A program made the translations under genes and the position numbers. DNA of 63,511 nt from a virus, in IMG/VR virus record IMGVR_UViG_3300042691_011765, positions 1-63,511 of that record; one strand, 5' to 3'. Shown piece by piece: positions 11,592 to 59,597 of the stretch (the first letter of the stretch is position 1; each line of letters begins with the position of its first letter). The notes beneath the pieces were generated by a model that was not told the origin of the DNA, searched no databases, and saw only the letters and a list, made by a program, of their open reading frames with translations.

Positions 11592-11736
11592 TTTCTTTGT
11601 ACCAACGCTGGCTCCCCACAAGACGAGGCAGGCAGGGCTACTGGCGGCCCTGCACTGCCGAGTCAAAGCGGTTGCTGCATTTGGCATCAAAGACGGGAAG
11701 CACGGCGTCCTGTTCACTCGGAAGACTGGCGGATGA
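11536..11736 (+). CDS. Small conserved phage protein, 66 residues
   Basis: It begins out of frame inside the last 56 nt of the primase-helicase gene. The sequence YPWAQTPPGSSFFVP...GLLAALHCRVKAVAAFGIKDGKHGVLFTR matches a pattern seen in short phage proteins near replication genes. GGAG lies at 11522-11525. Its 3' end overlaps the 3' end of the giant late gene on the opposite strand by 23 nt, so the two transcription blocks collide here without a visible terminator. Confidence 0.7.
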   Translation: MKKDLKVHYPWAQTPPGSSFFVPTLAPHKTRQAGLLAALHCRVKAVAAFGIKDGKHGVLFTRKTGG

Positions 11737-14700
11737 TGTCCCGATAGGTGGTAGCAACATCAATCTTCAGTTTGCGCAGTTCCTTCAACTCGTCACGCTT
11801 CTGCTCCGGGGTTAGCGCGGGGTCGCGCTTGAGGGCTTCCTCGGCGTCGCGGATGTCTTTCATCTCCTTGCGGAAGTCTGCCACGCTGTCGGACATGGCG
11901 ATGCGCCCAGATTCTTTGTTTATGTAACGGTCGGCTTCGGCATCCCGGTTTTCTTCCAGCAACTTGTTGTAGGTGTTCCGCGCCTGCTCCGCTTTCTCCA
12001 TCTGCTCGTAGACGTAGTCGATGATGCGGTTGCCGTCGTTGGGCTGGATCAGGCTGCCAACCACAGGCGTCTTTGAAGAAGGGAAGGGCTTGTCCGGTGC
12101 CGGCGGCGCGTTAGGGTCGCGCAGTATGGGATTTGCCATTGAGGCAATGGCCACCGCGAGTTGCGTACCCGTGGTTCGCACAAACTGATCAATCTGCACC
12201 GGAGACACAATCCCCTGCCCCATGGAGCTAAGCGTTTTGGCAAGCTCGGTCGTGTCGTCTTTGAAACGCTCCGTGGGATCGAGGCGCTTCATGCGCGAGG
12301 ACTCGATGTCCGCAAGGGTAAAGAAATCTTTGCCCATAGCCAGTTCTATGAACGGCTTGCCCACTTGCGGGATCAGGTTGGGCACCGATTGCCAAGCCAG
12401 CGCACCAAGTCCTTTGGCGATGGGCTTGCCTTCATCCGTGCCAAACACCGTGTTCATGACCGCTTCAGGGAGGGCCTTGAACAGCAGACCGTATTCAAAT
12501 GGGATCGGAATCTTCACCGGCTCTTCAAGCCCCGGGACGCGCACAAACCAGCTCGACAGCCGTTGTTCTGGCGTAGCTGTTTTGTAGGCTTCATCGTCTT
12601 CCATCAACGCCGCGTAGAGCATGGTCATAGCAGCCATACCAATACCACGCCGCACAAACTTGCTCTGAATGTCCAACCGCTTCTCGTATGGCATGCGCCC
12701 CCACGCCGCACGGTAGGTAACATTCAAGCTCTGAAGCTGCGTGTTGAAGAACGGTATCAGCGTGTTGGCCATATACAACGATGGGGACACGCCACGCCGG
12801 TTGAAGTCGATGATGTCGTTGGTTGCCAAGAACGCGTCAAGGTCGTTGAAGCCCATGCGCTTGTAGCTGTCATACGCAGACACCCGGGTGCCCACGTCGG
12901 CGTACATGCTCTTGGACTCCAGCCACGCCAGCGCGGTAGACAGGTTACCTTTGCCCCCGGTAACGCCCCGAAGGATTGTGGACATACCCTCCAACCCTTC
13001 CCCGGCAAGAACTTGACCGCCCAGCAGCCCGCGCTCTTCCAGTTCTTTGGCCGAGGGGCTTTTCTTGATCATCGCTTTGACTACGTTGCGCACCGGATCA
13101 AATACCGGATTAAAATCCGCACCGGACGTGCCGTATGCAGACAGCGAATCACGGATAATCTGCCGAACCGGATACAGCGGGTTCAGCACCACAAACTTAC
13201 GCAGCAACTTAGCCGGCGCACCCAACAACTGCAGCGCTGCCGGGAACGTCGTTTTGACACCCTCCAGACCTTTGACGAGAAGCTCGGCCGGGATGTCTTC
13301 GAAGATGGTGCCTTCGGTTTTTACAATAGCGTGTTTCTCTTCGCCGTTCTCCATGAAGCGGATGGTCAGGGGAGACGCCGGTCCTGCTTTGGGGCGAACA
13401 ACCATACCCCCGCGCCCAGCCTCCAACATACCTAGCTTGCGCAGGGTGTACACCACGTTCTTGGTCGTGATGTTGCGCAGGGCCATGTCCGTCAGCATGT
13501 GCGTGTTCTGTATAGAACTGGTAAACACGTCTTGGATAGGCTTATCACCACCCACCAGTTCGTTCAAATACGGCTGATCTTTCAAGTTACCAATCGTGAT
13601 TGGCGCGCCCTCAGAACCAATAAACAGTTTGACGTCCCCGCCCATCTTTCGGTAGAACGGGATGTAGTCCTTCTTGCGCTTCAGGTCTGCCGCAACTTCG
13701 GGACTAATACGTCCGGCCTGCACAGCAAAGTCAATCAAGCCGGCGTTGTAGGCGTTGTACTCCTTACGCGCTTTCTCAAAGGCTGCAGCAATTTTGGGCT
13801 GCGACGCCACATCTTTCTCGACACCGCGCAGCTTCTCGGCTGTCAGCAGGGGCTGCCCGTCCTTGTCTTTACCGTAGTTGAGCGCTTCGACGCCAATGCC
13901 TTCGTTCTTAACACGTTGCGCAGCCAACCACAGCGTGAACACCCTACCCGCTTCGTCGGCATTCATGCCCGACTCGCCCAGCGCTTTGAACACTTTGATC
14001 AGGTTGGGGTTATCTTTGCCTTCTTTGTTCTGCACCATCCAGTAATTGGCGGCACCCTCGGTAAATTTCTTCAGTTCCAGCGGGCCGTTTGCAGCCACGT
14101 TGCGGGTAAAGTTCATCCGCTTATCGTGCGCTACAAGGTAGTAGCGTGCTTGGCTGGCTTCCAATTCCGAGATTTTCCCGGCAGCCACACCCTTCTGCAG
14201 CGCCGCCAAGAACGGGGCAGTTCTGTCGATAATCTGCGTCACCCCGGTCAGGCCCAGCACGTTACCCTTGACGGTATCAATGGCTGATTTTTCCTGCGCC
14301 ACGACGCGGCGTAGCACATCTTTTGACGTGTCGCTCATCCAGTCAAGGTCAGACGAAGCGCCATCACGGAAGACTGCATTGCCATCAGGGGAGATGTATA
14401 CCCCGGGGCGGCTGTTCTTGAGTTCGCGCTCGGCATTGCGGATCAAAGCCTGTATCTGCTTGGTGTCTTGCTTGGCCAGATCAGACAGACCGCTGTTGCG
14501 GAACCACCCACGCACCGCGCCAATCATGTCACGGATAAACGTCTTGACCTTCTCCGCAAAGGTGGGGGCGACGCGCCGTCCTTCCGCAGCCCGGGCGATA
14601 AGCTCTCGGACGATTACGTTTTTGGTATCAGTGCTTTGCCCCACGGCAAGCCGCGCCGAAGCAACGTCCGGGTAAATACCCAGCCCCACGGCCACCTCGG

Positions 14701-17700
14701 CTACGTGATCCAGACCGCGCCCAAACAGTTTGTCCGTAAGCGCTTGCACCCCGTCCTTGCCGAGCACCATGTCAGCGCCGTAGTGGCCGATCAGTTCGTG
14801 GGCAATGGTTTCCTGCAGGTCGGCCGTAGATTTGTGCGCCTCCCCAACTACGATAACCGTGCCGTCCGGCATGACCGCGCCCTTGGCTGCGGTACGTCCG
14901 CTACGCTCCAGTGCTTTCTTGAAGGCGGCGGGAGCATCGACCAGTGTCGGGGCGTAGACAAACTTTACCCCCTCCGGCAGTGCTTTCTGCACCCGATCAG
15001 CAACGGCTTTGGCTTCGCCAGTATCGACCCCAGTATCAGCGGCAGAAGCATCACGGAAGTCTGGTTCACCGTAGACAGGGCCTTCATCTTCTAAGGGCCG
15101 TGCAGCTTTGCGACGTTCCCTACTTTCTTTTTCCTGCGCTTTTTCTTCTTCCGTGCGCATTTCAGGAACTTTTGATTTGGCAGCGCGTTTGCGCTGCACT
15201 CCATAAATGGTTTCTCGATCAGATATGTCAAACGCAGCGCGCGTCAAAGGCTGCATCGCTTTTTGCGTTTCTTGTTTAGTAGACCTTGCAACCAAGTCAA
15301 CGTCGTATTTAACCGCACGTTGTGCAATGTCTCGCCGTTGATCTTTCAACGCCGTCAGTTGGGTTTCTAAAGCAGGGCGTGTTCTTTTATTAAGCGCTTT
15401 GTTAATAGCGCGTATTTGTGCGCGCAGCTTGCCAATTTGGCTCTTACCCACTGCGATAGCTTCTTCCGAAGCATTTTTATTTACTTTTTTAATACGCCCT
15501 ATTTCTTTTGAATACTGTGTAACGCTATCCCTAAGTCGTTTTATTGCAGCTTTTGACTTTGGCAAGTCCGCAATTTGTTTTTTAACCTTGGCAATTTCAA
15601 TTTCGACTTCGTTGTATTGACGTGGCAACACACGCGACCAGTAGCCTGCCCTTTGTTCTTGCTTGTCGCTTGTTTCTTTTTCTGCACGCTCTTCAGCGTT
15701 TGGCGCTCGCGTAGTAATAGAGCGACGCGTAACCATGCGTTCACGCAACTGCGCGCGTTCGTCAATAAGCTCAAGACGCTGGTTGTATAGCTTGCGTTGT
15801 TTGCTGTCAAATTTACGGACAGTGTCTGCATCCAAAAACGGGTCCAGCGCTTGCTGTTCTTTGGTTTTTAAACCAAGCGTTTTTGCAATACTACGTATCT
15901 GTTCTGTAAGTTCGTTTATGCGAGCTTGCGTTTGAAGCAGTTCTCCACGTTTTTCTTCCGGGGTTGCTTCGATAAGTTTTGACGATACTTTTACAGGCGT
16001 CCGCTCAACAGTAACCGTGCGGGTTGTTGCGCCAGAGGCTTCCGCCCACTTCTTCAATTTAGCAGCGGCGTCGTCGTGCGCGTCGTACAGTTGCCGGTCT
16101 GTTTGCTTACGCGCGTTTTCTACAGCGTCAAGTCGTTTCTTCAACGCTTGCGCTTGACCCATCGTCTTCAGTTCGGCGATATATTTTTCTGCCGCAGCCA
16201 ACCGCGACAGCGCATCTTGGTACTGTTTGTTTGCTTTGAGTACAGTTTGCAGATACTGCTCGTTGTAAAAAACATCCTTATCAAACTGTTGTTGCTCTTC
16301 CGCTGTTTTTTCGTACTGCGCAGCCAACGCTTTGGTTTCAGCAGGGTCAAGCGTGGGGTTCAGACCGAGCAACTTTTTAAACTGCGCAAGCGTAAAGGTT
16401 TTGCTGCGTAACCCCTGCGCCATTTTTACAAATTCGTTTGTCTTTGCGATTGCGTCCCTAATGCGCTGCTCTTCTTTCCTGACAATGGTGTTTGCTTCAC
16501 GTTTGGCTTCTTCAAACGCTTGCTCCGCAGTTTCAATCTTTTGCGCAGGCGTAAGCCCCTGCTCTGCACGTTCCTTGTCTTCTTCAGCACGTTTCTTGGC
16601 TTCTTCAACACGCTTACGTTCTTGGGCTTTACCCTTTTGGATAAACGCAGCGCGCTTCAAGTTAGCCGGAGTGGCGCGCATAAACGACCGCGCTTCAGGC
16701 ATTTCAATTTCACGTTGCCCCGGGGCTTCTAGCAGCGCTTCTTCTGCGCGGCGCAGTTCGCTTTGCAAACCGCTCAAATCCGCTTCCCGGCCCATCAGTA
16801 TGCTGTCGGCAACATCGTTTACTTCTGCAACAAGCTCCTTGGGGACCGAGCCCCGCGCCAGCATATCTGCCGCACGTTCTAGCACAGCACGATCAGCTTC
16901 CGGAACACCACGCCGCAGCGCTTCATCAAGTTTGTTTGCAGCGTCCTGTTTATCCGCCGTAGCCGGAGCACGCAGTCCCTGAAGAATTTCTTCAGCGCGC
17001 GCAACACCCTGTTTATCCCCTTCCGCTTTGGCTCTTGCCAGCATTTTTTGCACTGCGGCAACTTTGCGCTCTGCGGCCATTTCGCTTCGAAGAGCAAACG
17101 GCGGAGTAACGCGCTGCTTAGCCGCGCGCTGTGCATACCCTAGCTTGTAGATTGTTTTGGCAATTTCAGTCTGCAAACGACCAAGTTCACTCTCGCCTTG
17201 CGCAATACGTTGAGCGGGATACGCTAGTTTCGTAATATCTCCCGTAGTCATACCACGCGCAATTACTGGTGGCTGATACCCAGCCTGACCAAAGGCTTCC
17301 GCCATGGCCGTAGGGGTAGACAAACGCTGACGTTCTCTCGCCAGTTCTTGCCGATAGCGCGCAATACCTGCGCGGTCTTGGTTTTGAATTGCATCTGCCA
17401 GCAGGCGCATCAAATCGGCTTCGCGTTGCGACCCTGCAGGTTTGGCATTTTCCAGAAGCTGTTCAAGCCTCGCGCGAAGGGGGCGTACAAGCTGGTTAAT
17501 TTGTTCGGGCGAAGCCGCACCCTTGTTATTCATGACCCGCGCCAGTTGCGCTTCACGGGTTACAAGAAACATCAAGTTGTTAATCAGATCGCGGGTTCTT
17601 TGTTTATCCGCTTCAATTTCTGCAGGATCAGTAGTTTCACCGCGCCGCAAACCATCAATAGCCGCCCCAAAATCAGACAATGCTGCAGCGCGTTGCTGGC

Positions 17701-20416
17701 GCAGGCTGTCTATCAACTCCTCCGCTTTTGCGGGGGTCACGCGGGACTCAGGAAGCGCGCCCAGTTTTTCAACCGCAGTGCGTTCCGCAGCGGTTAGTTC
17801 GGGTTGCGGTAGCGACATCTTGGCAACAGACTCAAAGCGCCGCAGAACGTTAAGCGCTGCTTCCGTGCCTACAAGGCGCTGTCCATCTTTTGTAAGTTTG
17901 CCGTCTTCTACCAACGTCTTGCTGGGAAACTCCGTACGCCGTGCCGACTCCAGCTCGTAAATGCGCTGTTGAATAATTGGCAAAGCAGTCTGCGCACCTT
18001 GCCCGTCGGCCAAAGACACTTCTTGCGGCAGCGTCAGACCCAACAGTTTTTGAACCGGAGCCGTCAGGTTTACGTTATCAATACTCTCCCGCAGGCTGCT
18101 GGTCGTAACTCCTTTTCCAAGACCCGACAGAATTTTTTCTTTGCGGGGCTGCGCCAGCACTTCTTTGGTCAACGTTTTGCGTTTCAAGCTGCGCGGTTGG
18201 GGTTCTTCAACCTTGATCCCCCGCGCAATGAGCATGGCTTCAATTGGGGCAACTTGCGCAATCTGTTCGCTGCGCTCGCCAACCTGCTGCGCTTCTGCTT
18301 CTTCCCGGCGTTGTTGACGCTGGGCATTAAACACGTCGCGCGCTTGCTGCAGCCGCGCTTCTTGGGCTTCAGTCAGTTGCTCCAGCGCTTGTTCACCAAA
18401 AACTTCGCCGCTTACGTACTCGGCGGGTACAACCCCTTGCTGCTGCAACGCATTGATGTCTCGATCTAACGCGTTTATTTGGTTTTGAATATAGTTTGCG
18501 CGCGCACCAGACGTGGCTTTCTTTTGCTGTACAAGCTGCGCACGTTGTTCTTGGAGCTGTTCAATTTCCGCAGCAACTTCAGGCGGTACTTTCGGCCGTG
18601 CGGCTTGGGGCTCGACCGTTGGGAAAGGCTGCGCTTCCATCTCTTCAGCAAACAACGCAGCTTGCCGTTCAGCGCGCTGACCCGCTTCTCGCTCCAGCGG
18701 AGTACCCGTAGTCTCTGCAAGCTGTTGCTCTAAAGCCGTAATGCGAGGCTGCAGTGCTTCGGCTTCGTCGTACTTGCCTTTGCTGTTGAGCGTTTTCTGA
18801 CGGTTGCGTAGCGCTTGAAGCTGCCCCACAACACCGCGCGATGCCACGCTAAGCTCGTCTTCGGAAATACCGAGTTTCTTGCCCTGCTCTTCAAACGTAT
18901 CCAGCGCGGCTTTGCGCTGCTGCTCCAACCGACCAAAGTAGCTGATGGCCGCTTGGTTATTCATTTCTTCCGCTTGGGCTTTCTGCGCGCTGATCTGTTC
19001 AAGGTCGTTCAACGCCCGACGGTAGTTTGTCAGGAATTGCTGTTTGTCTTGTTCGGTAGCCGCCTCTGGTTTTTTTGGAGGGGCAAAAGAAGCCAACGCC
19101 TCTTCGCGCTGATTGATAATGTCACTGAGCTGTTCTACTGCAGATATGTTGCCAGCAGCTTTTGCACTTTCAAGTTGCGCTTTTAAATTCTGAATATCTT
19201 GTTGAGCACGACGGTAGTTGGCTCCAAAACTTACAGCTTCTTCGGACGGCTGTAACGGAGTAAACCCACCACCCACTTCCCCAAACAGATCGGTCTGCGT
19301 GCCACCGTACCCCGCCAGTTGCTTGGCTTGCTGGAGCCTGCGGATTTCTTGCCGCAGGGCGTTGGCTTCAGGCGAGCCGCCGCGTTGTTGCTTGCCCAGC
19401 GTTTTGAGGTCTGCCTTGATTGCTGCAATTTTTTGGTCTGCAGACGCTACTTTGTCTGCCGGTATTTCTCCCGGGAGCGCATTGAACGCGTCAACCACGG
19501 CTTGCTTCTCTGCAGCCTTGCGTTCTTCCTCCAGCCTCTGGGCCCGTTCGGCTTCGCCTCTGGGCGCGGCACGACGGCCGGCTACGGCATCCACCAAGAA
19601 CTGCACAATGGCACCGGCACCTACCCCGTATGCAGCCTGTTCTCCAACGCCTTCAATCAGTTCTTGGCTGGGCTTGTATATGCCTCTGGCAATCAGGTTC
19701 TGCGCAACAGCGGACGCGGCTTCCTGCGCGCCTTCAAAACCACCGGTAACCAGCGCCCGTTTGACCCGCTCCAGAATCCCGCCTTTGAGTTCGTCCGGCA
19801 TCTTACGGAAAATGCGCTCAATCGGAAGCATCTCGGCCAGACCCGGAACGACGCCGGCAGTAGTAGCAGTCTGAATCTGTTCCGGGGTAGCACCCGCAGC
19901 AACAGCGCGTTCACGGGCCTCGCCAGCACCCATAGCGCCGGCAATCGGGGTAGTGGCTGCAAGTTGGGCAACCCGTTGTGCGCCTTGAGCCGCGCCAAGA
20001 CCTTTGGCTGCCAGTCCTGCAGCGCCGCCGGGCACCAGCAGGGTACCCATAGAACCAAGGGCTTCAGCCAGTTTGACCGGAATGGCTTCTTCGTAGCCAG
20101 CGGCTACGGACGGTTTGAACCGTTCGGCCAGACCCTTGATACCTTCCCGGGCAGTCTTTTCAAACCCGGTTCCCGTATCTCCCGGCAGCAGCGCTGCAGC
20201 GCCCAGCGCCGCGCTTTCAAGACCGCCAACAAAGCCACGGGGTATGGCTTTCAGAGATTCACGGGCGTAACCGCCCATGGTAAGTTCGGGAGCAGGGATT
20301 GCGGCGTCTGGATTTTGCGCTAATACAGCCCGCGCTACATCTTCACGACTTGCGCCTTCCGGACCTTCAATACGATAACGTTTGCCATTGGGCGCGGTGA
20401 TTTCGTAAAGCGGCAT
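11714..20416 (-). CDS. Giant phage polyvalent internal virion protein (2900 residues)
   Basis: The start at 20416 has GGGAGGT 7 nt upstream. The N-terminus, MPLYEITAPNGKRYRIEGPEG, carries a short module typical of phage virion proteins. Next come Gly/Ala-rich hydrophobic helices and a very long coiled-coil region (about residues 290-1750). A HELIGHYGAD zincin-like motif lies near residue 1871. The C-terminal ~600 residues end in a conserved helical domain of the large polyvalent protein type (LPD38-like: FEYGLLFKALPEAVMN). Such proteins are packaged and probably injected with DNA, carrying several activities in one chain. It is the last gene of the late block. No virion RNA polymerase motifs are recognised. 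Confidence 0.85.
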   Translation of the reverse strand: MPLYEITAPNGKRYRIEGPEGASREDVARAVLAQNPDAAIPAPELTMGGYARESLKAIPRGFVGGLESAALGAAALLPGDTGTGFEKTAREGIKGLAERFKPSVAAGYEEAIPVKLAEALGSMGTLLVPGGAAGLAAKGLGAAQGAQRVAQLAATTPIAGAMGAGEARERAVAAGATPEQIQTATTAGVVPGLAEMLPIERIFRKMPDELKGGILERVKRALVTGGFEGAQEAASAVAQNLIARGIYKPSQELIEGVGEQAAYGVGAGAIVQFLVDAVAGRRAAPRGEAERAQRLEEERKAAEKQAVVDAFNALPGEIPADKVASADQKIAAIKADLKTLGKQQRGGSPEANALRQEIRRLQQAKQLAGYGGTQTDLFGEVGGGFTPLQPSEEAVSFGANYRRAQQDIQNLKAQLESAKAAGNISAVEQLSDIINQREEALASFAPPKKPEAATEQDKQQFLTNYRRALNDLEQISAQKAQAEEMNNQAAISYFGRLEQQRKAALDTFEEQGKKLGISEDELSVASRGVVGQLQALRNRQKTLNSKGKYDEAEALQPRITALEQQLAETTGTPLEREAGQRAERQAALFAEEMEAQPFPTVEPQAARPKVPPEVAAEIEQLQEQRAQLVQQKKATSGARANYIQNQINALDRDINALQQQGVVPAEYVSGEVFGEQALEQLTEAQEARLQQARDVFNAQRQQRREEAEAQQVGERSEQIAQVAPIEAMLIARGIKVEEPQPRSLKRKTLTKEVLAQPRKEKILSGLGKGVTTSSLRESIDNVNLTAPVQKLLGLTLPQEVSLADGQGAQTALPIIQQRIYELESARRTEFPSKTLVEDGKLTKDGQRLVGTEAALNVLRRFESVAKMSLPQPELTAAERTAVEKLGALPESRVTPAKAEELIDSLRQQRAAALSDFGAAIDGLRRGETTDPAEIEADKQRTRDLINNLMFLVTREAQLARVMNNKGAASPEQINQLVRPLRARLEQLLENAKPAGSQREADLMRLLADAIQNQDRAGIARYRQELARERQRLSTPTAMAEAFGQAGYQPPVIARGMTTGDITKLAYPAQRIAQGESELGRLQTEIAKTIYKLGYAQRAAKQRVTPPFALRSEMAAERKVAAVQKMLARAKAEGDKQGVARAEEILQGLRAPATADKQDAANKLDEALRRGVPEADRAVLERAADMLARGSVPKELVAEVNDVADSILMGREADLSGLQSELRRAEEALLEAPGQREIEMPEARSFMRATPANLKRAAFIQKGKAQERKRVEEAKKRAEEDKERAEQGLTPAQKIETAEQAFEEAKREANTIVRKEEQRIRDAIAKTNEFVKMAQGLRSKTFTLAQFKKLLGLNPTLDPAETKALAAQYEKTAEEQQQFDKDVFYNEQYLQTVLKANKQYQDALSRLAAAEKYIAELKTMGQAQALKKRLDAVENARKQTDRQLYDAHDDAAAKLKKWAEASGATTRTVTVERTPVKVSSKLIEATPEEKRGELLQTQARINELTEQIRSIAKTLGLKTKEQQALDPFLDADTVRKFDSKQRKLYNQRLELIDERAQLRERMVTRRSITTRAPNAEERAEKETSDKQEQRAGYWSRVLPRQYNEVEIEIAKVKKQIADLPKSKAAIKRLRDSVTQYSKEIGRIKKVNKNASEEAIAVGKSQIGKLRAQIRAINKALNKRTRPALETQLTALKDQRRDIAQRAVKYDVDLVARSTKQETQKAMQPLTRAAFDISDRETIYGVQRKRAAKSKVPEMRTEEEKAQEKESRERRKAARPLEDEGPVYGEPDFRDASAADTGVDTGEAKAVADRVQKALPEGVKFVYAPTLVDAPAAFKKALERSGRTAAKGAVMPDGTVIVVGEAHKSTADLQETIAHELIGHYGADMVLGKDGVQALTDKLFGRGLDHVAEVAVGLGIYPDVASARLAVGQSTDTKNVIVRELIARAAEGRRVAPTFAEKVKTFIRDMIGAVRGWFRNSGLSDLAKQDTKQIQALIRNAERELKNSRPGVYISPDGNAVFRDGASSDLDWMSDTSKDVLRRVVAQEKSAIDTVKGNVLGLTGVTQIIDRTAPFLAALQKGVAAGKISELEASQARYYLVAHDKRMNFTRNVAANGPLELKKFTEGAANYWMVQNKEGKDNPNLIKVFKALGESGMNADEAGRVFTLWLAAQRVKNEGIGVEALNYGKDKDGQPLLTAEKLRGVEKDVASQPKIAAAFEKARKEYNAYNAGLIDFAVQAGRISPEVAADLKRKKDYIPFYRKMGGDVKLFIGSEGAPITIGNLKDQPYLNELVGGDKPIQDVFTSSIQNTHMLTDMALRNITTKNVVYTLRKLGMLEAGRGGMVVRPKAGPASPLTIRFMENGEEKHAIVKTEGTIFEDIPAELLVKGLEGVKTTFPAALQLLGAPAKLLRKFVVLNPLYPVRQIIRDSLSAYGTSGADFNPVFDPVRNVVKAMIKKSPSAKELEERGLLGGQVLAGEGLEGMSTILRGVTGGKGNLSTALAWLESKSMYADVGTRVSAYDSYKRMGFNDLDAFLATNDIIDFNRRGVSPSLYMANTLIPFFNTQLQSLNVTYRAAWGRMPYEKRLDIQSKFVRRGIGMAAMTMLYAALMEDDEAYKTATPEQRLSSWFVRVPGLEEPVKIPIPFEYGLLFKALPEAVMNTVFGTDEGKPIAKGLGALAWQSVPNLIPQVGKPFIELAMGKDFFTLADIESSRMKRLDPTERFKDDTTELAKTLSSMGQGIVSPVQIDQFVRTTGTQLAVAIASMANPILRDPNAPPAPDKPFPSSKTPVVGSLIQPNDGNRIIDYVYEQMEKAEQARNTYNKLLEENRDAEADRYINKESGRIAMSDSVADFRKEMKDIRDAEEALKRDPALTPEQKRDELKELRKLKIDVATTYRDIIRQSSE

Positions 20417-20418
20417 TA

Positions 20419-22956
20419 CTACCTCCCAACTTGTTGCGATTGACCCCACTTGGAAAGATCAAGACCTGCCCCCGGCGCAGCAGGTGCAACCGCACCAAGA
20501 CCGGCACCGGGCATAAGCGTTTTAAGATAGCTTTGGAACAGCGCGGATTCAATCTGTGCATTGTCCATATTGGGAAACCGCTTGCGCAAAGCCGCTATTT
20601 TTGTGGGGCTGTCCATAGCTTCTTGAGTAAGCTTTGCCGCGTTGTTACGCGCTTGAAGATCAAGCCGATTTTCCTGCGTTCCGCCCCTGCCGCCAAGCAC
20701 GCCTATGTAAGCCATACGGTACGCGTTTTCAAGATTGTTGTTACGCGTAATTTCGCTGAGTTTCTGGCCTTCCATTTCCAAAGAAGCCTTGCGCCAAGCT
20801 GCAAGCCCCGCTTGCTCAGCCGCCTTAATCTTTCGATCTTCCGACTTGTCCATAAGCCTTGCGCCAAGCTCGTAGTCACCCTGCTTGAACGCCATTTCAG
20901 CCTTGGCCATATCCATCTGCGACGCCCGCAGTTCTTTCTCCGCCCCGCGCCGTTCTTTGCCATACTGCATGCCGGTCTCGCCGGCAGCGCCCAGCGCAGC
21001 GCCAATTGATTCGATACCGCGACGCCCACCCTTGGACAGTTCAGCAGCCGCACGCAGTGCAGCCAAGCCCTTGGCTTCTTCGCCAAGCGCAGACAACCCC
21101 TTCCGGGCTTCTTCTTCCGACGCTTTCTGAGCACTGCGGAACGCTTCACGCGGTTCCTTCATATACCCAGCCGCCTTCTCCGCGTAGCTCTTTATCAAAT
21201 CGTCTTCGGACATCTCTGGCTGCGTAGCGCCTTGCAGCGTGGCAACCCCAGCATTGCGCGCACGGTCCTCGGCGGCAAATTCTTCCGGGCTGACCTCGGG
21301 CACAACAGCGCGCGCCGTCTTGGTCTTGGATTTGGCTTTGGGCGCGGCCACGGCCGCAATACCGGTGCTTGGCACTTCGCTGTATTGGTCGCTGTATTTA
21401 CGGTCCACAACATCGGATACCGGAATCCGCAAACCAGTAACAGGGTCGGTCGTAAACCCACTCATAACGTCGGGTGCTGCTGCCAACAGTGGTTCTTTTT
21501 TGACAATTTCTAAACGTTGCGCGCGGGCTTCTTCAGCGGGGGTAGCGTACGTTCTTTTGCGGTAATATAAATCCCGCAATGCTTGTGGTATCAAAGAAGG
21601 CACTTCACCTTGATTTTGAAACCGAATGGCCCCACCCTGCGCGGCGGCAGGCAGCGCTTCTTCGTCCTCGGCTTCCCCAACAATGCCGCCGTCAGGAATG
21701 TCCATGTCGGCCATATCGCCCAGACCCAGTATCTGATCCTTGACCGAAGGCTGGGCAAGCTGCGCTTGCGCTTGCTCCCCTTCCATGGCCGTCTGCGCCT
21801 GCTTCTTCTGGTTCAACACCAGCAACGCAACACCCTGCTCAATTGGACCCGGCATGCCTTGCAGAATTTGCTGCAAGCGCTCAATCGGCATGCGCAGCGC
21901 CATCTCGTACTGGGCCTGCGGGCTCTTCACGGCACCACCCACAGCGTAGCCATCCACAGCGCCACCGCCGGCGTATCCCTTAATCTCCCCGCCTTCTTTG
22001 GCAAACATCTTGCCAATACCGTACGCACCCAACCCCGCGCTCATCAGTTGGTTGACCGGCGACGCCGGGGCTTGATACTGATACATGGTTTGCTGCGGTG
22101 CAACCGGGACGCCCCGGAGCAACGAGCTGTAGAACTGCAGTTGCGACTGCGGGTACAGCGTCTGCTGCATGAAATCTTCGTAGCGCTTGTTGATTACGTC
22201 CTGCGCTTGCGCCTGCTGTGCGGCACCGGCTTGCTGTTGGGCTTGGAGCGCGGCGGCCTGCTGCCCAAAGGCTTGTTGCCCAAGCTGCCCGAACTGCTGC
22301 CCCATCTGCCCCGCCAGCCCAAAGCCCTGTAGCCCGAGGTTGGCCCCAAACTGCTGAGCCTGTCGAGCCGCATCAAACGCTGACTGCGAACCCTGTGCCT
22401 GAATACCCGCCAGTTGGTTCTGCAGGTTACGCTGGGCTTCAGCTTCTACGATTGCCTGTCGGGAACCGCCAAAAGCCCCCGCACGGGTAGCCGCCGCCTG
22501 CTGGCCGGGAAGCTGACGAGCGTAGTCTTGAACAGCTTGTGACTTCTGGAAGTCCACCACGTTCTGCATGTAGGGGGACATGAACGACCGGATGGCGTTG
22601 GGGTCAGTCGCCATCTGCTGATATTGCTGCCCAGCGCCCAGACCGCCCAATCCAGCCATGCCGGAGAAAGCCGCACCGGTACCAACCAGCGGCGACGGCC
22701 CCAAGTTCTGGATGCCCTCAAATGCTTTTTCTTGTAGCGGCGTGAACCCCGCAGTGCGCTCGCCGGTGTAGGGCTGATACTCTACCTGTGAGGCTTCTTG
22801 CCCCCGCTTCATAAGGTCTTCGAAATACGGGCGCGCGTACTCCGGCAGGTTGGTCTGCGTTACGTTCTGCTGGGTAGGCTGCGAAGAACCACCACCACCA
22901 CCGCCAAAGTAATGGATAAACGCGGTGCCGTTGAAGTATTTAAGAAGCCATTTCAT
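20419..22956 (-). CDS. Internal virion / DNA-ejection protein (845 residues)
   Basis: The N-terminus is a short hydrophobic and poly-Gly stretch (residues 13-24). A Gln/Ala-rich helical region (about 90-280) follows, with repeated AGQMGQQFGQLGQQAFGQQ-type units. Then come a Gly-rich hinge (KEGGEIKGYAGGGAVDGYAVGGAV) and a Lys/Glu-rich C-terminal helical half. This composition is typical of proteins packed in the podovirus head and ejected ahead of DNA. It sits immediately upstream of the giant polyvalent gene (2-nt gap), which suggests joint assembly. No enzymatic motif is seen. Confidence 0.7.
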   Translation of the reverse strand: MKWLLKYFNGTAFIHYFGGGGGGSSQPTQQNVTQTNLPEYARPYFEDLMKRGQEASQVEYQPYTGERTAGFTPLQEKAFEGIQNLGPSPLVGTGAAFSGMAGLGGLGAGQQYQQMATDPNAIRSFMSPYMQNVVDFQKSQAVQDYARQLPGQQAAATRAGAFGGSRQAIVEAEAQRNLQNQLAGIQAQGSQSAFDAARQAQQFGANLGLQGFGLAGQMGQQFGQLGQQAFGQQAAALQAQQQAGAAQQAQAQDVINKRYEDFMQQTLYPQSQLQFYSSLLRGVPVAPQQTMYQYQAPASPVNQLMSAGLGAYGIGKMFAKEGGEIKGYAGGGAVDGYAVGGAVKSPQAQYEMALRMPIERLQQILQGMPGPIEQGVALLVLNQKKQAQTAMEGEQAQAQLAQPSVKDQILGLGDMADMDIPDGGIVGEAEDEEALPAAAQGGAIRFQNQGEVPSLIPQALRDLYYRKRTYATPAEEARAQRLEIVKKEPLLAAAPDVMSGFTTDPVTGLRIPVSDVVDRKYSDQYSEVPSTGIAAVAAPKAKSKTKTARAVVPEVSPEEFAAEDRARNAGVATLQGATQPEMSEDDLIKSYAEKAAGYMKEPREAFRSAQKASEEEARKGLSALGEEAKGLAALRAAAELSKGGRRGIESIGAALGAAGETGMQYGKERRGAEKELRASQMDMAKAEMAFKQGDYELGARLMDKSEDRKIKAAEQAGLAAWRKASLEMEGQKLSEITRNNNLENAYRMAYIGVLGGRGGTQENRLDLQARNNAAKLTQEAMDSPTKIAALRKRFPNMDNAQIESALFQSYLKTLMPGAGLGAVAPAAPGAGLDLSKWGQSQQVGR

Positions 22957-48569: not shown

Positions 48570-50042
48570 CTAGTAATACGCTACACGGCGGCGCTTGAAG
48601 AACCTCGGCTCGTCTTTTTCGTCAAGGTCGTTACTGATGAACCCGCCTTGCCGGAAGCGCAGCAGCGCTTGTGTCGTCGTGTCTACATAGTCATCGTGCT
48701 CGCCCACTGGGAAAGCCGCCAACTCCTCAATTACATCCCTAGCCCAACGGGTGTCCGGTGCCCACACCAGCCCGCTGCTGAACATATCGCTTACCGCATT
48801 TACGCGGACTGTCTTGTCGTTGCCCCGGCTTGGAGAAAACTCCTGCACCGGTATGCCCATCGAGCGCAATTCCTGAATCAGCGGGCCACCCGCCGCCTTC
48901 TTTTCAACGATGAACGCGTCTGGGTTCCACGACTTCCAATGGTCGAAGGCAACCTGCTTCAACTCCGGAAACTCCATCCGATCCTTGAACGCATCCAGCA
49001 GAATCAGACTTGGGCGGTTGTTCTGTTCTTCGTTGTACCAAACCCCCCAAGTCGTACAGGCGGAGTAGTCCGACGAAGTTTTCGTATCGTGCGCGGTATC
49101 CCACGACTGTATCACGTATTCACAGCGCGGCGGGTTTTCTCCCTCCCAGATGCGCCAGTAGTCTCGCTTGATGAGCGCCGCCACATCTGCGGTCGGCTGC
49201 TGCATGTACTGTGCGTTCCAGAACCGAGGGTCGATGGTAGCCTTGGTCTTGAGCAGTTCTTCCACCGGCCACTTCTCTGGCCACAGCGCCTTGCCTGACG
49301 GCAGGATCGCCGGAAACTCAACAACCTCCCACTGATCGGCGTCGGGGTTCTTGGTCTGGTAGTTCACCAGCTTGGACGTAAGATCAAGCTCACCCCATCG
49401 GGTCATCACGACAATAATCGCGCCGCCCCACATCAAGCGCTGGCGCGGGCCGGTCTGGTACCAATTCCACGCCTGCTCAAACGGTAACTTGCTCCCGCTC
49501 TTCAAGTCCTGTTCCGAGTGGGGGTCGTCAATGACGAGCAAATTAGCGCCTCGACCTGCCAGCGCACCGCCCACACCCACGGCGTAGTACTTGCCGCCCG
49601 CCTGTGTCGCCCAACTGCCCGCACCCTTTTTGTCGTCAGCCAGTTGGGTCTTGCCAAATATTGAGCGGTACTCTGCTGAGGCAATCAGGTTTCGCACCCG
49701 CCCGCCAAAGTCTTCCGAGAGGGACGCCGTGTGCGTGGCCATGATGATCTGGTGATCCGGGTGCAAACCCAGATACCACGCCGGCAGGAGAAACGATGTC
49801 AGCTCGGACTTGCCGTGGCGCGGGGCGATGTTGATGATCACCCGCTTTTTCTTGCCGGCCGCTACATCCTTGAAGATGCGGGCCATGTGGCGGTGGTGCG
49901 CGCCGACGCTGTAGTTAGGGTAGACCTTCTTGGCAAACTCCAGCAAATCATTTCGGGCCGCCTGCACTTCCAGACGCTTAATCCGCTCGTCCAGAAGGCT
50001 CAGCAGCGCTTCGCGCTCCTCACGACTCTGCGGGGCTGTCAT
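48570..50042 (-). CDS. terL: Terminase large subunit
   Basis: This 490-residue packaging motor has Walker A APRHGKSE (about residues 73-80) and Walker B LLVIDDPHS near 170. It also has VVMTRWGELD and the nuclease aspartates/glutamates in SWDTAHD, VEKKAAGGPL and EHDDYVDT. It cleaves concatemers and drives DNA into the prohead through the portal. ATG at 50042 is preferred over an upstream TTG; it overlaps the small subunit gene by 23 nt. The C-terminal RFFKRRRVAYY is a conserved basic end. Confidence 0.95.
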   Translation of the reverse strand: MTAPQSREEREALLSLLDERIKRLEVQAARNDLLEFAKKVYPNYSVGAHHRHMARIFKDVAAGKKKRVIINIAPRHGKSELTSFLLPAWYLGLHPDHQIIMATHTASLSEDFGGRVRNLIASAEYRSIFGKTQLADDKKGAGSWATQAGGKYYAVGVGGALAGRGANLLVIDDPHSEQDLKSGSKLPFEQAWNWYQTGPRQRLMWGGAIIVVMTRWGELDLTSKLVNYQTKNPDADQWEVVEFPAILPSGKALWPEKWPVEELLKTKATIDPRFWNAQYMQQPTADVAALIKRDYWRIWEGENPPRCEYVIQSWDTAHDTKTSSDYSACTTWGVWYNEEQNNRPSLILLDAFKDRMEFPELKQVAFDHWKSWNPDAFIVEKKAAGGPLIQELRSMGIPVQEFSPSRGNDKTVRVNAVSDMFSSGLVWAPDTRWARDVIEELAAFPVGEHDDYVDTTTQALLRFRQGGFISNDLDEKDEPRFFKRRRVAYY

Positions 50043-50652
50043 CGGTAACGGGCGCGGCTTCGGCAACAGGGACTTCGTTTTCCAGCGTTTCGCCCTCAAC
50101 GACCTTCATCAAGTGCATGTACTTGCCCATGCGCTTGTCGATCTCAGCCTGCAGCTCTGTATCGGACAGCTCGGTTTTCTTTACTTCGACGCGCTCGGTG
50201 AAGAGCGCCACCTCCGTCACCTTGCCCAGCAACTCAATCGACTTCAACCGGACTTTGGCGTCGGGGTGTTTCGTTTCTTCAAGGAGTTGGGCGATGCAGT
50301 AGCCCCGAAGCTCCTTCGCCTGCTCGACAAAGGCCCAGTCGTAGGCGGTCAGCATGCCCACCAGATGTTTTACCGCGTTCGGCACCTCTACGTGTGCCAA
50401 GGCTTTCTTCTGCTCTTCGACGTCAAGGGGCGTGGTGAGCGCGGCGAATGCCTGTTGGGCGCTCTTCTTTTCGGCGTCGTCGATTACTTCGTCGTCATCG
50501 ATGCCAAGTCCTTGAAGCCACTCGGCGGTTTTGACTTTACCGTCGATGATTTCATGGGGCGCGACCTTGCCGTCAGGTGTGAAAGCGCCGGGAGCTGTGA
50601 GAATCTCCGGCACGAAGTCAGCGTCGTTCGCCGTTACAAGATGGTCAAACAT
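50020..50652 (-). CDS. terS: Terminase small subunit (putative)
   Basis: In this 210-residue protein the ATG at 50652 follows GGAG by 5 nt. It opens MFDHLVTANDADFVPEILTAPGAFTPDGK; a long helical region (about 75-185) includes KVRLKSIELLGKVTEVALF. An acidic C-terminal tail with VAEAAPVTDDSPAES follows. Its position immediately upstream of terL, size and helical content support a DNA-recognition subunit, although no clear helix-turn-helix is visible. It is the first gene of the late block. Confidence 0.7.
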   Translation of the reverse strand: MFDHLVTANDADFVPEILTAPGAFTPDGKVAPHEIIDGKVKTAEWLQGLGIDDDEVIDDAEKKSAQQAFAALTTPLDVEEQKKALAHVEVPNAVKHLVGMLTAYDWAFVEQAKELRGYCIAQLLEETKHPDAKVRLKSIELLGKVTEVALFTERVEVKKTELSDTELQAEIDKRMGKYMHLMKVVEGETLENEVPVAEAAPVTDDSPAES

Positions 50653-50715: not shown

Positions 50716-50798
50716 TCCTTCGTTGTAGTGCCTCGCGTCCACACGCAAGCTACTTAGGCACCTTAAGCCCCGGGCACCTCCTCCCCGGGGCTTTTTTT
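50716..50798 (+). ncRNA. Candidate small structured RNA (about 83 nt)
   Basis: The predicted transcript can fold with GTGCCT (50728-50733) pairing AGGCAC (50756-50761). This encloses GCGT-ccac-ACGC (50735-50746), and the transcript ends in the GC-rich terminator hairpin with seven Ts. No reading frame of note lies inside. It sits in the divergent region between the late and early blocks, just upstream of the terS leader on the opposite strand. The promoter, fold and terminator together support a real RNA gene; function is unknown. Confidence 0.5.
50765..50798 (+). terminator. Strong intrinsic terminator on the + strand
   Basis: AAGCCCCGGG and CCCGGGGCTT form a 10-bp stem around a 9-nt loop, followed by TTTTTTT in total (50792-50798). 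No protein-coding gene on the + strand lies immediately upstream, so it most likely ends the short RNA starting near 50716 or blocks antisense transcription. Confidence 0.88.
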
Positions 50799-51010
50799 GA
50801 CAGATCGTGTCAAAAATTTTACAAAAAATTTTTTGTGTCTAATATTTTACACATAGGGGTGGTATTTATAAATATTGGAGACAAACAGTGTTATTGCGTC
50901 GCTGCCGCGCTGCTGGGCCAAAAGGTGTCCCCGCCCTCCAGTGGGGTCTGCCGCAGGGCTGAAAGGGGTTCCTAGCCCCTGAGCCACAGAGTCTCCAAAA
51001 CGTGCTGTGG
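50799..51010 (+). promoter_or_regulatory. AT-rich divergent control region
   Basis: No gene is seen here. TGACA-gatcg-TGTCA (inverted repeat) starts at 50799. TTTACA and TAATAT spaced by 16 nt (about 50818-50845) form a possible rightward promoter. TATTTATAAATA is a perfect 12-bp palindrome near 50860. AGGGG-ttcctag-CCCCT lies near 50963-50980. The stretch 50800-50880 is by far the most AT-rich part of the neighbourhood and probably holds promoters or operators for both blocks; I could not identify a convincing leftward late promoter. Confidence 0.5.
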
Positions 51011-51481: not shown

Positions 51482-51560
51482 TTTGGCAGTTTGTTTCTGA
51501 GAGACAGGGCGCGCGAGGGTGTCGGCGCTGTTTCGGCCCCTTGCGCGCTCAATCAAAAAC

Positions 51561-51577
51561 GGGACACTTTGTCCCAC
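51561..51577 (+). repeat. GGGACA hairpin repeat, copy 2
   Basis: GGGACA-ctt-TGTCCC followed by ACTTTCTATT. The stem is 6 bp with a 3-nt loop, 20 nt before the start codon at 51596. Confidence 0.75.
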
Positions 51578-51595
51578 TTTCTATTGGAGAAACGG

Positions 51596-51871: not shown

Positions 51872-52108
51872 ATGAGCAGAATAAAAGCGTTCGCCCTCGA
51901 CACCATCGAGGAGTGCATCGCCCACGACAAGGGCCGCACCACGTCCGCGCGGCTCAGCGTCCGCCTCACTACGCTGGGCTTCAAGATGACTGACGACCAA
52001 GCCGCCACGCTGGCGCGCAGCTTCGGGTTCAAGGTCATCCCGCACCGCTTCACCTGCGGCACCGAAGCCCGAAAGCGGGACACGCTGTCCCACTTCATCT
52101 CTCACTAA
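51872..52108 (+). CDS. Hypothetical protein, 78 residues
   Basis: The start follows AGGAGAAACACC. The N-terminal part is helical (FALDTIEECIAHDKGRTTSARLSVRLTTLG). Its last codons (ARKRDTLSHFISH) are encoded by repeat hairpin copy 4, so the repeat sequence has become coding. No family is recognised. Confidence 0.6.
   Translation: MSRIKAFALDTIEECIAHDKGRTTSARLSVRLTTLGFKMTDDQAATLARSFGFKVIPHRFTCGTEARKRDTLSHFISH
52077..52093 (+). repeat. GGGACA hairpin repeat, copy 4 (inside a coding end)
   Basis: GGGACA-cgc-TGTCCC plus ACTTC. It lies within the last 32 nt of the gene ending at 52108, and the next gene start is nearly 400 nt away. This copy is therefore not simply a leader of the next gene. Confidence 0.75.
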
Positions 52109-52123
52109 CGTGTTACACACAGA

Positions 52124-52143
52124 CATGTCAAATTTTTGACATG
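52124..52143. promoter_or_regulatory. 20-bp palindrome, probable operator
   Basis: CATGTCAAATTTTTGACATG has 9-bp perfect arms (CATGTCAAA/TTTGACATG) around TT. Symmetry and length fit a binding site for a dimeric regulator. It lies 9 nt before the left mirrored element. Confidence 0.65.
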
Positions 52144-52152
52144 CCGGACATT

Positions 52153-52246
52153 TGTCCAGTGCGTCCAATTTCAGACCCCCGATATTGGCGCAAATTACTG
52201 AGACAAATCAACGATGTTCCGTCCACCTGTCCAGATGTCCACATAT
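52153..52246 (+). repeat. Mirrored 94-bp element, left arm
   Basis: Six boxes occur in order: TGTCCA (52153), CGTCCAA (52162), ACCCCCGATATTGGCGCA (52175-52192), ATCAAC (52207), TGTCC (52228) and ATGTCCACATAT (52235-52246). The same boxes, with the same spacings of 3, 6, 14, 15 and 2 nt, occur on the other strand at 52335-52428. Confidence 0.9.
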
Positions 52247-52334
52247 ATATACTCTTTTCCCTTCCTAAATATATATACAACGTTTAAGTGGACGTTTTCC
52301 TTTGAAAGAAAGTCGGAAAGCTTAAAGGTCGAAA

Positions 52335-52428
52335 ATATGTGGACATTCGGACACGCTCGCACTAAGCTGTTGATCTTGCAAGAATATCTGCGCCAATATC
52401 GGGGGTTTCGTTTTGGACGTAGTGGACA
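52335..52428 (-). repeat. Mirrored 94-bp element, right arm
   Basis: The inverted counterpart of 52153-52246: ATATGTGGACAT (52335-52346), GGACA (52349), GTTGAT (52369), TGCGCCAATATCGGGGGT (52389-52406), TTGGACG (52413) and TGGACA (52423-52428). At least 54 of 94 positions match. The spacers differ in sequence but not in length, the pattern left when protein-contact boxes are conserved and spacing is constrained. Confidence 0.9.
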
Positions 52429-52482
52429 CAGCAGACACAAATCGCTAACACGTTGATTAACAACGAAAAGGAATTTTTAAAC

Positions 52483-52888: not shown

Positions 52889-52927
52889 GTGGGACGTGGT
52901 TTATAAAAGCAGGACGCCCTGTCCCAC
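52889..52927 (+). repeat. GGGAC hairpin repeat, copy 5 (long-loop form)
   Basis: GTGGGAC (52889-52895) and GTCCCAC (52921-52927) pair over a 25-nt loop that itself contains AGGAC next to GTCC. The left arm begins within 2 nt of the preceding stop, and the gene start at 52989 is 61 nt downstream, farther than for other copies. Confidence 0.65.
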
Positions 52928-52988
52928 TTTGGATGCAGCACCCGCAGCACAACCAGCAACACTTACCAACACACTTAGGAGAATCATC

Positions 52989-53238: not shown

Positions 53239-53766
53239 ATGACTGACAACGTCACCCCCATCAACGTCGCCATCAACACCGAAGCGCCCACCCCTGCGCG
53301 CGCGACCCTGCAAGACAACCTGCAGTTACTTTTTGGTAACTTCTTTTCAAGTCTTGCCAACATGATCACCGACGAGGTGGAGCAGCGCATCAAGGCCGCG
53401 CAGGTGGAGAAGGACAGCAGCGCGCCAGCGGTGCCCACGGTGGATGAACTGTCCGAGTCGCTGATGCTGGCGATGCAGCAGGCCGAGTGGGTCAAGGACT
53501 TGCTGGCCAACCACGTTGCCACGCAGGACTTCAGCGGCGAGATATCGGATCAAGTGGACAAACACATGCGCAACGTCGATTTCAGCGATGACATCCAGCG
53601 CGTGTTGGACTACCACGATTTCAGTTCTGACATTCAGAGCGTGCTGAACAACTACGACTTCGACGAGAAGATACAGGAGGCCATCGACAACTACGACTTC
53701 AGTTCGGACATCGAGCGCGCAGTCGAGGACAAGATGAGCGAAGCGAAGATCAGCGTGCAGTTCTAA
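53239..53766 (+). CDS. Protein with tandem DFSSDI helical repeats, 175 residues
   Basis: The start follows AAGGAGAATCACC. Residues 1-60 include a helical LQDNLQLLFGNFFSSLANMITDEVEQRIKAA. From about residue 95 there are five acidic units of 12-16 residues: QDFSGEISDQVDKHMRN, VDFSDDIQRVLDY, HDFSSDIQSVLNN, YDFDEKIQEAIDN and YDFSSDIERAVED. These likely form an extended helical or coiled oligomer. The family is unknown. The acidic repeats could bind a basic partner or mimic DNA charge. Confidence 0.7.
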   Translation: MTDNVTPINVAINTEAPTPARATLQDNLQLLFGNFFSSLANMITDEVEQRIKAAQVEKDSSAPAVPTVDELSESLMLAMQQAEWVKDLLANHVATQDFSGEISDQVDKHMRNVDFSDDIQRVLDYHDFSSDIQSVLNNYDFDEKIQEAIDNYDFSSDIERAVEDKMSEAKISVQF

Positions 53767-57233: not shown

Positions 57234-58361
57234 ATGCAGATTCCGACTCTGTCGCACTCGCAAGTCCGTGACCTCATCAAGTCCGTGGGTCACAAGCGCA
57301 CCGTCATCGTCCTTGGCGAGAACGGCGTAGGCAAGACCAGCATCCAATACGAGCTTCGCCAAGACCCTGCGTTCTTGGGCTACAACGTGCTCGACCCCAT
57401 CGACTGCACTCAGTTGTCCGATGGCAGCGTGTGGATGCCGGACATTGACCGTGAGGCTGGCGTGTCGCGCGAGCTTCCCAACGAGCGCTTCTGTCTCAGC
57501 AAGTCCAACCATCGGGGGCTTGCCGGTAGCCGGCCGTCCATCATCTGCCTTGACGAGTTGTTCAAGGCCCCGCAGTTCATCAAGAACGTGCTGGCCCCGG
57601 TGATCTTTGAGCGGCGCACCGGCACCCTGCACTACCCCGAGGGCAGCATCGTCTGGGGCACCAGTAACCTCGCAGTCGAGGGGCTGGGCGACTCTGTGCT
57701 GGCGCACCTGCGCACCCGCATGCTCAAGGTCATCATGCGCAAGCCCACCAAGGACGAGTGGAAGAACGAGTTCGCGTATCCGTTCGGGCTGCACCACGCC
57801 ATCATCGTGTTCGTTGACCAGAACCCTGTCGTGTTCGAGTCGTTCATGGACTACGAGCCGGGCGGTATCAACGCGGGCAAGGACATGAGCAAGTGCAACG
57901 TGTATCCGTTCAACCCACGTATCAAGCAGGACGGCTACGTCAGCCCTCGCACACTGCATGCAGCCAGCGACGTGTTGCACACGTGCGGTCACCTCGATCA
58001 CGACACGCTGTTGGCCGCGCTTGCCGGTGCGATGGGCGAGGCCGCTGCCCGCACGCTGATGGCGTTGGTTGCACTTGACCGTGACATCCCGCTGTATGAC
58101 CGCGTCGTTGCCGATCCCGTCAACACACCCATCGTTGACAACCCTGCAGCGCAACTCATGCAGATACAGCAGTTCATCGTCAACACCAAGTCCCGCGAGG
58201 ATGCGCAAGCAGTCACGGTCTACATCAAGCGCATGCGCTCGGAGATGCAGTCGCTGTTCGTCAATCAGATAGCCAACAGCCCACGCTTGACTACCTTCGC
58301 TACCGTGGATGCCTTCCGGTCCATGATGACGGACAACAAGCTGTTCCTCAACCTGAAGTAA
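57234..58361 (+). CDS. MoxR-type AAA+ ATPase
   Basis: In this 375-residue protein, Walker A is GENGVGKT (about residues 28-35) and Walker B IICLDELFK (about 102-110). FERRTGTLHYPEGSIVWGTSNL is the sensor-1/pre-sensor region and LAHLRTRMLKVIMRKP contains the likely arginine finger. This is the MoxR/N4 gp24-like family. MoxR ATPases act with VWA-domain partners as chaperones that remodel protein complexes, and the partner is encoded directly downstream. ACGAAGGAG precedes the start. The target in the phage cycle is unknown. Confidence 0.88.
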   Translation: MQIPTLSHSQVRDLIKSVGHKRTVIVLGENGVGKTSIQYELRQDPAFLGYNVLDPIDCTQLSDGSVWMPDIDREAGVSRELPNERFCLSKSNHRGLAGSRPSIICLDELFKAPQFIKNVLAPVIFERRTGTLHYPEGSIVWGTSNLAVEGLGDSVLAHLRTRMLKVIMRKPTKDEWKNEFAYPFGLHHAIIVFVDQNPVVFESFMDYEPGGINAGKDMSKCNVYPFNPRIKQDGYVSPRTLHAASDVLHTCGHLDHDTLLAALAGAMGEAAARTLMALVALDRDIPLYDRVVADPVNTPIVDNPAAQLMQIQQFIVNTKSREDAQAVTVYIKRMRSEMQSLFVNQIANSPRLTTFATVDAFRSMMTDNKLFLNLK

Positions 58362-58388: not shown

Positions 58389-59597
58389 ATGCTACCTGAA
58401 CGTGTATGGCAGGCGCAGGACTTGTCCGCGCGCATCAAGGTTGTCCACACCGACATCATGCGGCACCCCGAGTTTTCGTTGCTTGCGGGTATCGTGTGCA
58501 TGGGCAACGTCAGTATCAGCGACAAATACCCCACTGCTGCAACCAACGGCCGCGACGTGTTTTACGGCCACAAGTTCTGCGACGCCCTCAACCAGAAGCA
58601 GATGCGCTACGTCGTGCTGCACGAGAACGGCCACAAGTCGCTGCGCCACTGCGTTGAGTATCGGGAGATCGTCAAGAAGTATCCCAAGCTCAGCAACATT
58701 GCGCAGGACCACGTCATCAACCTGATGATCGAGGAGTGCGACCCCCACTGGCAGTTCGTGCAGCTACCGGTGGACGGTATGTTTCGTGACCCCAAATACA
58801 AGGGCTGGAGCTTCATCGAAATCCTGCAAGACCTTATCAAGAACAGCAAGCCCGATGATGACGGTGACGATGGGGACTCGGGCGGTTCGTTCGATGAGCA
58901 CCTCGATGGTAGCGAGCTTGGCGATGACGAGATGCAGCGTGTCGGCAAGCAGGTCGATGAGGCGCTGCGGCAGGGCAAGATTCTGTCCGACAAGCTGCGC
59001 GGTCGTGGCACCGGCAACGGCGGCAACCCGCTCGACGCCACCATTCAGCAACGCGAGACCGACTGGCGCGAGGCGCTGCGTGACTTCGTCCAGTCCATGT
59101 GCTCGGGCTACGACAACAGCCGCTTCTGCCCGCCCAACAAGCGCTTGCAGCCGCTGGGCTTCATCATGCCCTCACACTTCAGCGAGACCATCGGCGAGTT
59201 GATCGTCGCATGCGACGCATCGGGTTCGATGGGTGGCGTGTATCCCACGGTGTTCGGCGAGATTGCGCGCATCTGCGAGACCGTGCGGCCGGAGCGTGTC
59301 CGCATCATATGGTGGGACGATGGCGTCAACAGCGAGCAGGAGTTCACCCCCGACGACTACGACAAGATCGCCGGTCTGATGAAGCCGCAGGGTGGCGGCG
59401 GCACGCGCGTGTCCTGCGTTGCCGAGTATGTAGCAGCGAAGCAATACAAGCCTGTAGCAGTGGTCTACCTCACGGATGGCTACATCGAGAGCAGCTACAC
59501 CGTTCCCGACGTGCCGTGTCTGTGGGGCGTGGTTGACAACAAGTCCTTCAAGCCGCGCGTTGGCATGAAGGTTGACATCAGCAGCATCAAAATCTAA
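58389..59597 (+). CDS. Metallopeptidase-like/VWA protein (DUF2201), MoxR partner
   Basis: In this 402-residue protein the N-terminal domain has VVLHENGHKSLRH (HExxH near residues 78-82) and AQDHVINLMIEE, as in the DUF2201 putative metallopeptidase domain. A low-complexity acidic linker (DDDGDDGDSGGSFDEHLDG) follows near 157-175. The C-terminal VWA-like domain has the MIDAS motif ACDASGSM near 275-282 and YLTDGYIES. The same pair occurs in N4-like phages (gp24/gp25) and in bacteria as MoxR/VWA systems. A zinc peptidase activity is possible but unproven. Confidence 0.87.
   Translation: MLPERVWQAQDLSARIKVVHTDIMRHPEFSLLAGIVCMGNVSISDKYPTAATNGRDVFYGHKFCDALNQKQMRYVVLHENGHKSLRHCVEYREIVKKYPKLSNIAQDHVINLMIEECDPHWQFVQLPVDGMFRDPKYKGWSFIEILQDLIKNSKPDDDGDDGDSGGSFDEHLDGSELGDDEMQRVGKQVDEALRQGKILSDKLRGRGTGNGGNPLDATIQQRETDWREALRDFVQSMCSGYDNSRFCPPNKRLQPLGFIMPSHFSETIGELIVACDASGSMGGVYPTVFGEIARICETVRPERVRIIWWDDGVNSEQEFTPDDYDKIAGLMKPQGGGGTRVSCVAEYVAAKQYKPVAVVYLTDGYIESSYTVPDVPCLWGVVDNKSFKPRVGMKVDISSIKI

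Follow-up and report, generated by a model that had tools for sequence, protein, structure and literature searches.

Mirrored blocks of binding-site-like boxes around an AT-rich core form a candidate replication origin in phages related to DSL-LC04

At archaeal oriC, inverted origin recognition boxes are arranged around an unwinding element. The headful pac sites known so far are found within the small terminase gene (terS) or beside it. PICI/SaPI origins have lineage-specific site sequences and a core comparable in size to the one described below. In PICI origins, two outward-oriented sets of sites surround a melting core (PMC6092414), and pRN-type plasmids retain a stem-loop without conserving its sequence (PMC4234260).

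The origins of most environmental phages are unknown, and the passages on promoters, origins, and intergenic features consulted in papers on related phages describe none. Here we report a 276-base stretch of a phage genome in which two mirror-image blocks of binding-site-like boxes flank an AT-rich core. The element, which was detected by symmetry rather than by sequence, is a recognizable and testable candidate that would serve a widespread group related to the freshwater phage DSL-LC04 and the HTVC-type pelagiphages.

The mirrored element and its surroundings

The window, by which we mean the whole stretch of DNA analyzed, is a 63,511-bp IMG/VR virus contig classed as linear. Its plus strand carries replication genes (family A DNA polymerase, PD-(D/E)XK nuclease, SNF2 helicase, and a primase-polymerase/DUF927 protein), and its minus strand carries structural genes (terminase, portal, capsid). 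The element occupies a 374-bp gap (52109-52482) between a 78-aa ORF and the gene of a 134-aa C4 zinc-ribbon protein. This gap belongs to the early operon, at a distance of about 2 kb from the terminase genes. The features are as follows.

51872-52108, plus strand: 78-aa ORF, left neighbor of the element, conserved in L006, L007, and L010
52124-52143, no strand: palindrome CATGTCAAATTTTTGACATG flanking the left arm; L006, L007, L010, and L012 have similar versions
52153-52246, plus strand: left arm, from direct reading and inverted-repeat search
52153-52158, 52162-52168, 52175-52192, 52207-52212, 52228-52232, and 52235-52246, plus strand: left-arm boxes, positions kept in L006/L007 with small changes
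52247-52334, no strand: AT-rich core, candidate duplex-unwinding element, with two TATATA-type tracts at its edges
52335-52428, minus strand: right arm, the reverse-complement copy of the left, from direct reading and inverted-repeat search
52335-52346, 52349-52353, 52369-52374, 52389-52406, 52413-52419, and 52423-52428, minus strand: right-arm boxes
52340-52368, plus strand: rightward promoter-like site in the right arm, TGGACA-17 nt-TAAGCT, same spacing in L012 and L018
52423-52451, plus strand: promoter-like site at the right end, TGGACA-17 nt-TAACAC, 31 bp before the zinc-ribbon start codon
52483-52887, plus strand: 134-aa C4 zinc-ribbon protein, long helix at the C terminus, candidate binding protein
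8658-11591, plus strand: 977-aa primase-polymerase/DUF927 helicase-like protein, second candidate initiator, not next to the element

An earlier note on this DNA had described six boxes in mirror order with equal spacers around an AT-rich center, and direct reading confirms all of this exactly. The left-arm boxes are, in order, TGTCCA, CGTCCAA, ACCCCCGATATTGGCGCA, ATCAAC, TGTCC, and ATGTCCACATAT, separated by spacers of 3, 6, 14, 15, and 2 nt. Reverse-complemented, the right arm repeats all six of these boxes at identical spacer lengths. The two arms agree at 63 of 94 positions without gaps and at 69 of 91 aligned positions with gaps, and a repeat search recovered the element as two inverted pairs. 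The GGAC sites face outward in both arms, by 9 to 1 in the window and by 95 to 34 over 17 elements, a total that includes two close pairs (the window and L006, L010 and L012).

The best mirrored-arm score in the 374-bp gap is 34, against a mean of 9.9 (SD 1.5, maximum 18) in 1000 dinucleotide shuffles of the gap. It is also the highest in the whole 63.5-kb record, where the runner-up reaches 18.0; all mirrored-arm scores depend on a single alignment scheme. Rfam models gave no match at gathering scores across the whole window, and a tRNA scan found none.

A+T makes up 67% of the core, and the genome as a whole is about 57% G+C. The record contains two TATATATA sites, both inside the element, and in the related loci tabulated this sequence, where present, is confined to the element. 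The core region contains nearly the weakest 40 bp in the record, with only 0.008% of windows weaker, and is narrowly beaten by 50808. In most loci tabulated the least stable 40 bp falls in the element, 023Pt_psg01 being an exception, with a core that is not unusually unstable.

The 50808 minimum belongs to an AT-rich stretch with promoter-like sites (50760-50900) that separates the probable terS from the first early gene. The region at 50.7-50.9 kb is likely the early/late divergence region, separate from the element. The probable terS itself (50020-50652, minus strand) adjoins terL; a distance of about 1.5 kb that includes several plus-strand ORFs separates it from the element.

Short hairpins of the form GGGACA...TGTCCCACTT are repeated near early-gene ends at 51556-51579, 52072-52095, and 52906-52929. 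Relatives bear their own versions, AACTCAGGGACA...TGTCCCTGAGTT in L025 and TAACTCAGTAGCACGTTGCTACTGAGT in L021. Elsewhere in the window, a 2911-aa ORF (11714-20449, minus strand) matches two PHROGs families of unknown function, in its C-terminal part only. An ATPase (phrog_1297; 57234-58361) and a DUF2201/VWA-like protein (58389-59597) are adjacent on the plus strand, a pairing that resembles MoxR-type systems.

Recurrence and concerted change of the arms

A nucleotide search of the phage collection gave no matches, near or distant. A search with the terminase yielded 80 related IMG/VR loci, 30 of which include 3.4 kb or more of sequence upstream of the terL match. Of these 30, 20 gave a strong element in the symmetric-arm scan; removal of L021, whose mirrored match, like that of L022, is an artefact of repeated hairpins, left 19. 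The 19 loci and two published complete genomes, DSL-LC04 and 023Pt_psg01, contain one element each in the same place, or in a comparable one for the two genomes; in the true loci it lies about 2.0-3.5 kb upstream of terL. The element scores 29 in DSL-LC04 (next best 18.5) and 25.5 in 023Pt_psg01 (next best 21), with shorter arms that lack GGAC boxes. Ten of the 30 loci fall under the score threshold, some of them having an AT core and weak arms. No clear counterpart was found within 12 kb of terL in the isolates HTVC027P, HTVC023P, and Pag-Yong1.

Two close relatives (L004/L006 on one contig, L005/L007 on another) retain the entire gap and not the boxes alone. The right arm of L006/L007 has a first spacer of 4 nt and an 18-bp box that reads GCGTA, and the left arm has lost ATCAAC. 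In L010/L012, the 18-bp box is altered in both arms, most in the right.

In 13 lineages, the two arms of a genome score 29-45 against each other. Between lineages the mean scores are about 8-10, compared with 7.7 for shuffled arms; the lineages used here and in the orientation counts were hand-chosen and are not fully independent. The closest pair, the window and L012, still has the left arm in common (35). Since arms match within a lineage and fall near the shuffled level between lineages, both arms change together. The earlier note had expected related phages to share the box sequences, and this did not hold: the boxes differ from lineage to lineage and in every one are mirrored between the arms, so that the conserved features are architecture and position.

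Among close relatives, 20 of 361 arm-identical positions changed, compared with 30 of 137 non-identical ones (p about 4e-7), in line with the claim that selection has kept the boxes rather than the spacers. Six close comparisons showed no compensatory changes, and one-sided changes break pairs. Conservation of the arm-identical positions without compensation is therefore read as a sign of duplex-DNA binding sites and against a hairpin, and speaks for the boxes as putative sites of this kind. Over 22 related elements, arm mismatches on the strand towards the downstream gene are 143 A-C and 73 G-U, an asymmetry for which we have no explanation.

Origin and rival readings

We consider that the element is probably a replication origin, with two oppositely facing sets of sites around a melting core in a PICI/SaPI-like layout; this judgment comes from sequence comparison. 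A phage initiator, either the zinc-ribbon protein or the primase-polymerase/helicase, would bind duplex DNA at the boxes of each arm. The opposed site sets would let two complexes assemble face to face across the AT-rich core, which would then melt. Helicase and primase would be loaded, probably once per direction, giving bidirectional initiation. The earlier note had favored an origin with two opposed complexes; this idea, a probable one, stands as the best reading of the single strong copy per genome, the conserved place, the easily melted core, the outward orientation of the short sites, the conservation of arm-shared positions, and the co-changing arms. Arms that match within and not between lineages are expected if the initiator and both site sets change together. 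Also in favor of this reading, the element belongs to the early operon and is separate from the main early/late divergence, which maps near 50.7-50.9 kb.

GC skew, proposed earlier as a check, gave a detrended minimum at 53370 in the window, near the element but coincident with the change of gene strand. In DSL-LC04 the minimum is at 27853 and the element at 20737, and in 023Pt_psg01 a maximum, not a minimum, is found at the element. Because gene strand confounds GC skew, and the genomes disagree, it was set aside as evidence on the origin.

The zinc-ribbon gene adjoins the element in many lineages, not all. An iterated profile collected 25 ORFs of the C4 zinc-ribbon family, the last few with other domain content. 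The protein has no convincing Pfam or PDB relative. Its PHROGs matches are weak and point to endonuclease VII/HNH families (best E 6e-5), with phrog_2340 matched in 11 of 18 members. The predicted structure, a small zinc fold and a long helix, gave no fold match at E below 0.001. The protein was named earlier as the binding partner and is plausible as such, but several element-bearing lineages, such as L028, L030-L036, L047, L051, and L066, showed no such gene beside the element. The profile has no match in the records behind L028, L030, L033, L034, L047, L051, L066, and L071. The primase-polymerase assignment in the window comes from a weak Pfam match and PHROGs matches. The primase-polymerase/helicase is present in four long records (G001, G006, G008, and G010) and absent from DSL-LC04, 023Pt_psg01, HTVC027P, HTVC023P, and Pag-Yong1; its absence from several other records says little because these are short fragments. 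In the contig behind L043 (G008:C1:37876-40932), the homologue is in two pieces with an internal TAA.

A regulatory region appears unlikely. Promoters and mirrored operators, the latter bound on both sides by a phage regulator, would here control the zinc-ribbon and downstream early genes, perhaps by looping, in keeping with the position directly upstream of an early gene, the operator-like palindrome in the left flank, and the two rightward TGGACA sites. In the window, L012, and L018, the right arms have TGGACA or TGGACG with a TAAnnn hexamer at the same 17-nt spacing, and the promoter-like sites of the window may drive the zinc-ribbon gene. In contrast, the left arms show no peak of -10-like hexamers at 16-18 nt, and the left neighbors lie on the plus strand, so a leftward promoter would have no gene there. 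A divergent sigma70 promoter pair was rejected, the -10-like hexamers at 17 nt peaking on right arms only. The earlier statement that the element is no ordinary promoter needs amending for the right arm, where promoter-like sites exist, although promoters do not account for the left arm. The single copy per genome and the separate divergent early/late control region also weigh against regulation, and looping needs no AT-rich core so extreme.

The terminase neighborhood invites a packaging initiation site of pac or cos type, with terminase binding both arms and cutting in the core. The conserved distance of about 2-3.5 kb from terL and the annotated terS close to the element in DSL-LC04 and 023Pt_psg01 agree with this, and HTVC023P-type genomes circularize by terminal overlap (PMC9599517), which allows headful packaging. 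We nevertheless hold packaging to be decidedly improbable: the probable terS of the window is neither around nor next to the element, and a one-directional process needs neither mirror symmetry nor a melting core. A folded single strand, that is, a long imperfect RNA or DNA hairpin like the stem-loop origin proposed for pRN1-type plasmids, is very improbable. Folding of the plus strand does give z about -8 for both RNA and DNA, the window encodes a primase-polymerase, and the pRN-type stem-loop is likewise kept without sequence conservation (PMC4234260). The low folding energy, however, follows from the arms being inverted copies. Compensatory changes are missing, the spacers are diverged and unpaired, and plus-strand mismatches show no excess of G-U (73, versus 143 A-C), so that a strong fold without helix covariation leaves the hairpin disfavored. 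A functionless inverted duplication kept similar by gene conversion is hardly credible. Arms are indeed far more alike than those of other lineages, but divergence is patchy, with long identical boxes next to fully diverged spacers; the arm-identical positions are conserved between relatives; and the element persists at the same place across many lineages.

Returning to the origin reading, it is possible, and we suggest it tentatively, that these elements make up a family-wide class of phage origin, with two long composite mirror arms whose boxes are exchanged in concert from one lineage to the next, making the arms a lineage-specific identity code. If so, the arms would be read by a matching initiator. 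The co-changing arms provide a natural series of site variants for matching a candidate initiator.

Comparison with known systems

Archaeal oriC resembles the element in having oppositely facing initiator sites around an AT-rich core. It differs in its initiator, with no Orc1/Cdc6-like protein among the window proteins scanned. Headful pac/cos sites are likewise noncoding, placed in the terminase neighborhood, and recognized on two sides, whereas the element is a mirror-symmetric part of the early operon with an AT-rich core, and in the window about 1.5 kb separates it from the probable terS.

The stem-loop origins of pRN1-type and BIP-1 primase-polymerase systems are large inverted structures in which symmetry is kept and sequence is not (PMC4234260), and the window encodes a primase-polymerase/helicase-like protein. 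In contrast to these, the element shows no helix covariation in the six close comparisons, an 88-nt core separates its arms, and the primase gene is far away.

The layout of PICI/SaPI origins, where two sets of short sites flank an AT-rich stretch (PMC6092414), is shared by the element. Its position differs: it lies 5' of the zinc-ribbon gene and not immediately 3' of a primase or replication gene, the primase-polymerase/helicase being encoded at 8658-11591. The element belongs to a phage genome of the 60-kb class rather than to a satellite, and its arms of about 80-150 bp combine several different boxes where PICI/SaPI origins repeat one iteron.
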